From NCBI GenBank assembly GCA_002404345.1, contig DHJN01000175.1, positions 1-6,808 on the forward strand: 6,808 nucleotides of DNA, read 5' to 3'. The first letter of the stretch is position 1; each line of letters begins with the position of its first letter. Shown piece by piece: positions 3,581-6,627 of the stretch. A model generated the notes under the pieces. That model searched no databases and was not told the DNA's origin. It worked only from the letters and a program-made list of their open reading frames with translations. This DNA is from Actinobacteria bacterium UBA4719 (GTDB taxonomy: Bacteria; Actinomycetota; Actinomycetes; Actinomycetales; Dermatophilaceae). Both the position numbers and the translations under genes were made by a program.

Positions 3581-3829
3581 TCAGCCAGCGCGACGAACGG
3601 GTGCCTCGCCGCTCTCGAGGGCGTGTCGTTCTTCCTGGGACAATCCGCCCCAGACTCCGGCAGCCTGGCCGGAGTCGATAGCCCACGTCAAGCAAGCCTG
3701 GGCGACCTCGCACCGACGGCAAACGGCTTTTGCTGCTTCTAACTGGAGAAGCGCGGGACCGGTGTTCCCCTCAGGGAAGAACAACTCCGGATCCTCGCCG
3801 AGACAGGCAGCGCGGCGCCAACTCAGCAT
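3581..3829 (-). CDS. WhiB-family iron-sulfur transcriptional regulator
   Basis: This 82-residue protein has the Wbl signature: four cysteines at C9, C37, C40 and C46 (C-x27-C-x2-C-x5-C), which should bind a redox- or NO-sensitive [4Fe-4S] cluster, and the GVWGG turn at 58-62. It opens with WRRAAC and DPELFFP as in WhiB1-like proteins. Wbl proteins usually act by binding the main sigma factor and tuning promoter choice. Two points are unusual. The residue after CxxC is E41, where proline is common, and the C-terminal tail after LSQEERHAL has few basic residues (it reads ESGEAPVRRAG) where many family members have an arginine/lysine-rich DNA-contact tail. The ATG start is supported by AGGGAG seven bases upstream. 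Plasmids and phages also carry Wbl genes, so mobility is possible. The gene stands alone, so its targets are unknown. Confidence 0.92.
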   Translation of the reverse strand: MLSWRRAACLGEDPELFFPEGNTGPALLQLEAAKAVCRRCEVAQACLTWAIDSGQAAGVWGGLSQEERHALESGEAPVRRAG

Positions 3830-5552: not shown

Positions 5553-5595
5553 GACGCCCACCGTGTTGCGCATGCGGACCCCCTTGAGGGGCGTC
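5553..5595. terminator. Stem-loop between the convergent Rid and winged-helix genes
   Basis: GACGCC (5553-5558) pairs with GGCGTC (5590-5595). A second, competing hairpin, CCCC-TTGA-GGGG (5580-5591), lies within it. It sits just after one stop codon and 24 bases from the other, where a bidirectional terminator would be expected. There is no U-tract. Confidence 0.4.
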
Positions 5596-5619
5596 GGTGT
5601 GGAGTGGGCTGTTCGGCGT

Positions 5620-6627
5620 TCATCGCAGTTGGCGCAGGTCGAGGATCGCGCAGGCACGGCGAGCGACGGTGCGTCGGATGACGGGCATGCCCTCGGCGGT
5701 CAGTTCGGCGCGGGCCTGGGCCTGGAGGGCAGGTCGCAGGCCGTCCGTCTCGGCCAGTCGTGCCTCCATTTCGGCGAGTTCGCGGGCGTCCATGGCTTGG
5801 TCGACACCGAGGGGGAGAGAGTCCCACCACGGTCCGGCTTCGGCCACACGTGCCGGCGAGCGGCTTTCTGGGTCGCGGGCAACGGCCAGGAGGGCCTGTC
5901 CCATCAAGGCTGGCGGCCAACCCCGGGTCACCACAGCCAGCTTGATGACGACGGCCAAGCACCGAGCGGTCCACCGGGCGGTCGGTTTGCCGAACAACTG
6001 GCGTGCGGTCATGCACTGACGAGCCAGCTCGTCGAGGTCGGTGATGGCGCAGGCTTCCAGCAGGTCGTGGTCTGCCTCCTCCACCTGCGTCGGCGCGGGC
6101 CGGCCGCGGTGTGAGGGGGTAGGGGGAGGAGGTTTGTCGGTGAGGATCTCTGGGTTGTGCCGCACTTCTGCGGCCACCCTGGCCGCAGAAGTGCGGCCAG
6201 GGGTAGCCGCAGATGTGCGGCTACCGGTTCTGGGGGGTTCGGGGGTAGCCGCAGATGTGCGGCCACCCCCATCGGCGGTCGCCACCTGAGTCGGGGCGGT
6301 GGTGCGCACGTGGTACCGGTTGGACAGGAACTGCTCACCGTTGCGGCGGTGCTCGACACGGACGATGCCGGCTTCGGTGAGCTGGCGCATCGCCCGGTCG
6401 ATGGCGTCGACCGAGCGGCGCAGCCGCCGGGCCAGGGTCTGCCGGGACGGCATCCGGGACCCGGAGCCGTTCCCGTAGCGAAGCAGCAGGGAGTAGAGGC
6501 GGAACGCACCGTCGGAGATAGCAGCGTCGATCACCCATTCGGGGACGATCGCGAACCGCGGTTCCTCCACGACGAGGGTTCCGGCGACTGGGGGAGTTGT
6601 GGGCGTCGATGGGGCTTGGCGGGTCAC
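5620..6627 (-). CDS. Winged-helix protein, replication-initiator-like
   Basis: From the GTG at 6627 this is a 335-residue protein. Residues about 23-110 form a winged helix: FAIVPEWVIDAAISDGAFRLYSLLLRYGN, written here in two parts as FAIVPEWVIDAA and SDGAFRLYSLLLRYG, then MPSRQTLARRLRRSVDAIDR and MRQLTEAGIVRVEHRR, ending in SNRYHV. This pattern resembles the N-terminal DNA-binding domain of plasmid initiators of the RepA_N type, and also many uncharacterised actinobacterial helix-turn-helix proteins on plasmids and integrative elements. Residues about 120-157 form a repetitive linker (RTSAATP units) encoded by DNA palindromes. The rest (about 180-335) is alpha-helical in appearance and unrecognised. 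An upstream TTG (6666) is in frame but lacks a Shine-Dalgarno sequence, whereas AAAGG lies eight bases before the GTG. A role in replication is inference; a transcription regulator is the main alternative. Confidence 0.85.
   Translation of the reverse strand: MTRQAPSTPTTPPVAGTLVVEEPRFAIVPEWVIDAAISDGAFRLYSLLLRYGNGSGSRMPSRQTLARRLRRSVDAIDRAMRQLTEAGIVRVEHRRNGEQFLSNRYHVRTTAPTQVATADGGGRTSAATPEPPRTGSRTSAATPGRTSAARVAAEVRHNPEILTDKPPPPTPSHRGRPAPTQVEEADHDLLEACAITDLDELARQCMTARQLFGKPTARWTARCLAVVIKLAVVTRGWPPALMGQALLAVARDPESRSPARVAEAGPWWDSLPLGVDQAMDARELAEMEARLAETDGLRPALQAQARAELTAEGMPVIRRTVARRACAILDLRQLR
6159..6270. repeat. Cluster of four palindromic iteron-like repeats inside the winged-helix gene
   Basis: The 16-base unit GCCGCA-N4-TGCGGC occurs at 6159-6174, 6182-6197, 6206-6221 and 6248-6263. 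The inner four bases are GAAG or GATG, and the first copy is the exact reverse complement of the second. Copies 1 and 2 form a perfect 18-bp inverted repeat with a three-base loop (6159-6197). Copy 3 has 10-base perfect arms (6202-6225). Copy 4 has 13-base arms with one mismatch (6241-6270). Copies 3 and 4 share an exact 22-base direct repeat (6200-6221 and 6242-6263). Centres are 23, 24 and 42 bases apart, close to two, two and four helical turns. Iterons in the central part of the initiator gene are known for RepA_N plasmid origins. Confidence 0.85.

Follow-up and report, generated by a model that had tools for sequence, protein, structure and literature searches.

The O protein of bacteriophage lambda has a two-domain layout, RepA_N plasmids of Firmicutes carry their origin iterons inside the initiator gene, and actinomycete integrative elements of the pSAM2 type integrate at tRNA genes. 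Iterons inside an initiator gene are also a feature of rep1 of the Streptomyces plasmid pSLA2, for which the literature searched here yielded no report. The lambda origin maps within O, where inverted repeats bind O dimers and a 40-bp A+T-rich region lies adjacent, as described in PMC5043065. Actinomycete integrated elements of the pSAM2, SLP1 and pMEA300 type encode their own replication initiator and are reported to replicate autonomously after excision; the survey describing them defines AICEs by a RepSA, RepAM or Prim-Pol initiator together with an FtsK-type Tra, and states that extending the search by 15 further initiator families gave one more element (PMC3218068). The extrachromosomal actinophage prophages Miko and Rachaly have a helix-turn-helix RepA-like initiator, and their authors consider that, by the example of lambda, the origin may be situated within repA or a short way upstream of it, with no repeated motifs reported in the regions examined there (PMC7157519). 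Initiators of the Streptomyces iteron plasmids pWTY27, pFP1 and pFP11 bind repeated or inverted sequences, and the account of pWTY27 places its iterons adjacent to repAB (PMC3583192).

The window analysed here, a stretch of 6,808 nucleotides, is one entire contig of a 3.77-Mb draft genome of 275 contigs. It contains a predicted replication initiator gene (rep) whose layout, among the systems described so far, comes nearest to that of the lambda origin within gene O. As in lambda, an array of inverted-repeat iterons lies inside the initiator gene, with the dyads placed between the coding regions of two domains, and the Rep protein matches PHROG_391, 'replication initiation O-like' (E=2.1e-8). 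Rep gives no match to Pfam Phage_rep_O (PF04492) up to E=0.1, and the locus differs from lambda in that no P-like loader was recognised, the gene has a mild GC dip rather than an A+T-rich tract, and relatives of rep adjoin relaxase genes instead of residing in a lambdoid phage. The original prediction had looked for the counterpart among RepA_N plasmids. For that comparison we considered the RepA_N initiators of Firmicutes plasmids (pSK41, pTZ2162) and the PLE satellite RepA. The in-gene position of the array would agree with it if the array is the origin; Rep has no match to Pfam RepA_N (PF06970) up to E=0.1, the RepA_N-type winged-helix structures 4pql, 4pt7 and 5kbj tied with unrelated winged helices in structural comparison, and the units here are GC-rich and without a central A tract. 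The AICEs are similar in being actinobacterial integrated elements with a replication initiator and different in their partners, the recognised neighbours in relatives of rep being a MobA/VirD2-type relaxase, a NikA-like protein and a TraG-type coupling protein; the Pfam matches of Rep up to E=0.1 include neither DUF3631 nor Prim-Pol (RepSA has no Pfam model). Compared by description, Miko and Rachaly are alike in having a helix-turn-helix initiator in actinophages and different in that their published regions come with no reported repeats, and pWTY27 differs, on the published account, in having its iterons beside repAB where the array here lies inside rep.

Rep and the palindromes in its gene

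The gene lies at the right end of the window on the minus strand, with its stop at 5620. The mechanical open reading frame starts at TTG 6666 and encodes 348 aa; we consider GTG 6627, giving 335 aa, to be the likely start, because 22 of 30 aligned homologues begin in this column and an SD-like GAAAGG lies immediately upstream of it. The features of the gene and its array are as follows.

5620..6627, minus strand: predicted replication initiator gene (rep), from the open reading frame and profile matches, with its probable start
6307..6543, minus strand: winged-helix domain, aa 42-120, AlphaFold2 model
6088..6306, minus strand: linker-coding region, aa 121-193, mostly low-confidence in the AlphaFold2 model; contains all four sites
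5623..6087, minus strand: all-helical C-terminal domain, aa 194-348, AlphaFold2 model
6248..6263, unstranded: first palindrome along the gene (palindrome 1), read in codon frame 1 as R-T-S-A-A
6206..6221, unstranded: palindrome 2, also in codon frame 1, at a distance of 42 bp from palindrome 1
6182..6197, unstranded: palindrome 3, again in codon frame 1, at a distance of 24 bp from palindrome 2
6159..6174, unstranded: last palindrome along the gene (palindrome 4), read in codon frame 0 as A-A-E-V-R, at a distance of 23 bp from palindrome 3
6133..6153, minus strand: codons 172-178 (PEILTDK), directly after the last palindrome, synonymous-site conservation +0.257 (observed minus expected codon identity)
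5580..5591, minus strand: hairpin CCCCTTGAGGGG downstream of the rep stop, a putative terminator

The sole Pfam match of Rep above cut-off is HTH_36, a helix-turn-helix domain (E=1.2e-6). In PHROGs, aa 37-174 match PHROG_270, replication initiation (E=6.6e-15), which by profile match places Rep in this family together with its relatives L053 (2.4e-15), L050 (8.8e-38) and the fragment L047 (9.7e-8). In the AlphaFold2 model (mean pLDDT 67), the array falls as had been proposed between the winged helix and the C-terminal domain (helical over aa 194-347), over the low-confidence linker. Structure comparison of the C-terminal domain gave no confident match and no recognisable helicase-loader fold.

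The four copies of GCCGCA-N4-TGCGGC on which the original prediction was built are all exact and fall within 6159-6263. Markov-shuffled windows (orders 1 to 3, 300 each) contain on average at most 0.007 exact sites and at most one in any window, against the four observed, and none of 1000 synonymous shuffles of the window rep, with protein and codon usage fixed, reached four (mean 0.025, maximum 1). Genome-wide there are eight exact sites, of which four lie in the window, two in a broken second rep copy on contig C197 and one each on C168 and C240; a control pattern occurs five times in the same genome. The spacing had been described as about whole helical turns, which fits the 42-bp gap and not those of 23 and 24 bp, which correspond to 2.2-2.3 turns at 10.5 bp per turn.

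The predicted perfect 18-bp stem with a three-base loop is present in the window (arms 6159-6176 and 6180-6197). Since each site is able to form a 6-bp stem and two adjacent window sites form this longer one, the sites might act as RNA or single-strand hairpins, either in mRNA structure or as a replication hairpin. We regard this as highly improbable: the 18-bp stem is imperfect in the four sister copies L022, L028, L029 and L030, whose cores differ, and arm deviations are mostly one-sided, with 64 such pairs against 5 compensatory ones among 80 candidate sites (3-mismatch background hits included), which is not what base pairing would favour.

Conservation of the array in close and distant relatives

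For comparison of DNA with protein we used 15 family genes, a set without the broken or partial copies L022 on C197, L027 and L030, without duplicate records (L025 equals L037, and L031-L033 equal L028-L030) and without the distant L044 and L047; within it, L042 is cut by a contig end and the L029 reading begins at the conserved part. The repeat array lies within rep in all 15 (at most 3 mismatches), and in 14 of them the exact sites exceed every synonymous shuffle (300 per gene, 1000 for the window). The exception, L037 from Kineococcus siccus, has one exact site, reached by 5/300 shuffles. With one mismatch allowed, relatives have 1 to 7 sites, and the observed numbers are reached by 1/300 shuffles for L040, 2/300 for L041 and 62/300 for L037. 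Further genomes gave 3, 4 and 4 sites at one mismatch in L097, L099 and L101 (0/200 shuffles each) and two sites in the broken copy L102 (reached by 7/200); L098 and L100 are apparently the same records as L038 and L042. Among distant genes, the same test found one near-site in L044, reached by 64/300 shuffles, none in L047, and no GCCGCA sites in the distant matches L103 and L104. Both of the latter are on the minus strand, L103 having a related C-terminal part and a different N-terminal part, and by eye their linkers carry near-copies of CCTGRAAAACCG in L103 and of GGGGGTAAATGCTGACCC in L104.

At up to 3 mismatches, all 15 genes have a gap of 23 bp between their last two sites, with variable gaps further out, and the reading frame switches in 15/15, the first sites encoding R-x-x-A-A and the last site A-A-x-x-R in another frame. 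Synonymous-site conservation of rep peaks at the last site (+0.376 over the 15 genes; SD of windows 0.118), and the next windows are two other parts of the array (+0.300 and +0.230), the block after the last site and codons 191-199 (+0.178). As judged from these sequences, the palindromes are conserved as DNA rather than as protein, given that the codon frame changes at the last site. The converse explanation, that a flexible R-T-S-A-A-T-P linker was expanded by tandem duplication and that the palindromes are a by-product, would accommodate the varying number of sites and the low confidence of the modelled linker, yet it is hardly credible: it is already contradicted at the DNA level by the failure of synonymous shuffles to reproduce the sites, the last site encodes a different peptide, core residues vary while the arms stay constant (the sites were picked by their arms), and in phage-like genes this position is taken by different peptides and different dyads.

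The conserved block at codons 172-178, which in relatives is often near ACCCAGAGATCTCTACCCAGAG, is a candidate unwinding or accessory element. GC content beside the array is 67% against 70% for the window gene, and across the family the 60 nt after the last site have 60-72% GC against 69-77% in whole genes; the GC-poorest 60 nt lie at or just after the last site in 8/15 genes, the window not being one of them.

The 19 loci compared, 18 of the family plus phage L053, contain 50 exact sites within rep and not one in the 231,074 bases outside it. This distribution bears on the possibility that the sites are operators through which Rep represses its own transcription from inside the gene, as a roadblock and with no origin function. 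Winged-helix proteins often bind palindromes, and the best Pfam and structural neighbours include many repressors; however, the sites are more than 350 bp inside the gene, exact sites are absent from the promoter region and from the remainder of the 231 kb examined around rep, and multiple sites with a fixed 23-bp pair, together with the PHROG replication matches, fit an origin better. We therefore consider an operator function unlikely.

Beyond the family, we examined 43 viral loci and four genome loci (L044-L047), 47 loci that reduce to 36 distinct genes, mostly from viral contigs, whose main part in common with Rep is the winged helix. The expectation that homologues would carry clusters at the same place was borne out in the family, and some phage-like genes combine other units there with a different recognition helix, but 26 of the 36 distinct distant genes lack an array directly after the winged helix (25 with none above all shuffles, plus L081). 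A repeat cluster above all 20 codon shuffles is present in 11/36 (about 1.7 expected by chance), and in 10 of these 11 it directly follows the winged helix, the array of L081 being far from it. Seven of the 10, of which a Microbacteriaceae draft genome contributes two and viral contigs five, are close relatives of one another, and their units are of the GGGACA-N4-TGTCCC type, spaced mostly at 21 bp. In a re-test of four such arrays by synonymous shuffles, each was reached by 0/60. Phage L053, 47% identical in the winged helix, retains GCCGCA-N4-TGCGGC with gaps of 23 and 24 (0/60 shuffles). Under the stricter test of 60 synonymous shuffles, the arrays of L047, L070 and L061 were reached by 2, 6 and 51, respectively. 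The predicted recognition helix, assigned from the model, reads D.[IV]DRA[ML]R in the GCCGCA genes shown, L053 included, and K.VERAV in the two GGGACA genes shown; L047, with another unit, has the predicted recognition helix K.IDRALR. Co-variation of dyad and recognition helix is thus seen in a few groups only.

Mobile-element context of rep

Homologues of rep are sporadic, occurring in 5/58 related genomes and 10/197 genomes of the class (the own genome counted in both), and a protein search gave 433 matches; few of these carry an organism name, and almost all of the named ones are actinobacterial. No homologue was found among PLSDB plasmids, and with PLSDB yielding none, no replicating plasmid with a homologue lacking the sites was seen. 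Of the two settings first proposed, a plasmid or an integrated element, the second is the one that gained ground, relatives of rep residing in what resemble integrative mobilizable elements.

An antisense sequence resembling a tRNA 3' half lies upstream of rep in 12/12 aligned loci that reach that far (by eye; the alignment has 13 rows, the window ends too early, and L030, L034, L038, L041 and L042 were left out). Seven of these sequences resemble tRNA-Arg(ACG) and the rest other tRNAs, again by eye, with ARAGORN confirming only the partner in L027. Among loci added later, L097 and L099 have such a sequence, and L098, L100, L101 and L102 were negative by a simple pattern. One of seven loci, L027, shows within the DNA examined a pair of direct att repeats, one end being marked by a complete tRNA gene: a tRNA-Arg(TCT) at 446-519, whose 3' half is repeated over 48 nt (476-523 and 10511-10558, 98% alike), the direct repeats being 10,035 bp apart with rep just inside. 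The rep copy of L027 is interrupted by a TGA. The 10-kb element between these repeats (520-10510) contains coupling-protein-like DNA 84% alike to that of L026, and encodes AAA ATPase and DUF6414 proteins.

Among 28 neighbour proteins searched against Pfam, relaxases of the MobA/VirD2 type were recognised in L024, L026, L034 and L040, NikA-like proteins in L025, L036 and L040, TraG-type coupling proteins in L026 and L040, DUF4913 in L026 and L027, and DUF2637 in L024; the relaxase-like proteins of L025 and L035 gave no Pfam match. Between rep and the relaxase gene, 8/17 loci carry a block that hardly varies from genus to genus and consists of AGCAAGATAT and, after it, the inverted repeat GCATCTGG-N3-CCAGATGC.

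L024, L026, L027, L034, L036, L039, L040, L043: candidate transfer-origin block (AGCAAGATATGCATCTGG and inverted arm)

The 18-mer core of this block is present in 2/58 related genomes, with three occurrences, each less than 2 kb from rep; the window is without the AGCAAGATAT block. We suggest the block as a candidate origin of transfer of these elements. The palindromes themselves might be a parS-like partition site, an incompatibility site or a transfer site bound by the winged helix, with replication starting elsewhere, since arrays bound by element-encoded proteins also serve partition and the related elements carry transfer genes. We think this quite improbable, given that in 8/17 loci a separate transfer-origin-like block lies between rep and the relaxase gene, that the Pfam search of 28 neighbour proteins revealed no ParA and that the annotation of the relatives is replication.

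Taken together, the relatives' rep genes look as if they sit in integrative mobilizable elements and not in plasmids. Membership of the window's own copy in a tRNA-integrated mobile element is presumed by analogy with its sister copies, since within the window's genus nucleotide homology to the four sisters stops near the hairpin, at 5562-5603, 17-58 bp past the rep stop, and since the window contig shows no transfer gene such as a relaxase and neither an integrase nor a tRNA half. The contig ends 142 bp upstream of the open reading frame, and the sisters L022, L028 and L029 have their tRNA-half-like sequence further upstream. The second copy in the same genome (G000, contig C197, 260-1044; L022) is broken by an internal TAG and a missing stretch and retains its two exact palindromes. 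Elsewhere in the window, sensor kinase and response regulator genes (99-2307) are convergent and do not form one operon, and 3581-3829 encodes a WhiB-family transcription factor (Pfam E=5.6e-23).

A predicted origin inside rep

In our best reading, the array would serve integrative elements of the mobilizable or conjugative kind as a lambda-O-like origin placed within the gene. We think it probable that the palindromes are the dimer-binding iterons of Rep itself and form the predicted origin from which a mobile element, likely integrated at a tRNA gene, would replicate. The in-gene origin put forward in the original prediction is in this respect supported, by clusters at the same place in homologues and by the matches to PHROG 'replication initiation' families; the sequence evidence covers the position of the array, its conservation as DNA, its near restriction to rep and the presence of other units in some phage-like relatives.

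By analogy with lambda, the winged helix of a Rep dimer would bind each dyad, and the array would bend or open DNA right beside the last site, a step that is the weakest of the mechanism because GC content falls only a little in the block that follows. The helical C-terminal domain may help to load the host helicase. The excised circle would then replicate, as the actinomycete elements described in PMC3218068 do after excision, and this would support its maintenance while it is transferred by the relaxase, NikA-like and coupling proteins encoded alongside rep in other genomes.

More broadly, we lean towards the view that these genes represent an unnamed actinobacterial replicon family in which the origin lies inside the initiator gene, 6-4-6 dyads at 21-24 bp encode the initiator's own linker, and dyad and recognition helix are swapped together between integrative conjugative or mobilizable elements and phages. 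If so, the family would offer a natural code of winged-helix/iteron pairs and would add a replication module of tRNA-integrated elements that is absent from the part of the AICE survey considered here (PMC3218068). Beyond RepSA, RepAM and Prim-Pol, little has been described of the replication modules of integrative elements. The segment is short enough for a mini-replicon test in actinobacteria without vectors, and the paired change of dyad and recognition helix would provide a direct handle on winged-helix specificity. The layout of an origin inside its initiator gene may extend to a large unnamed family that accompanies integrative elements.
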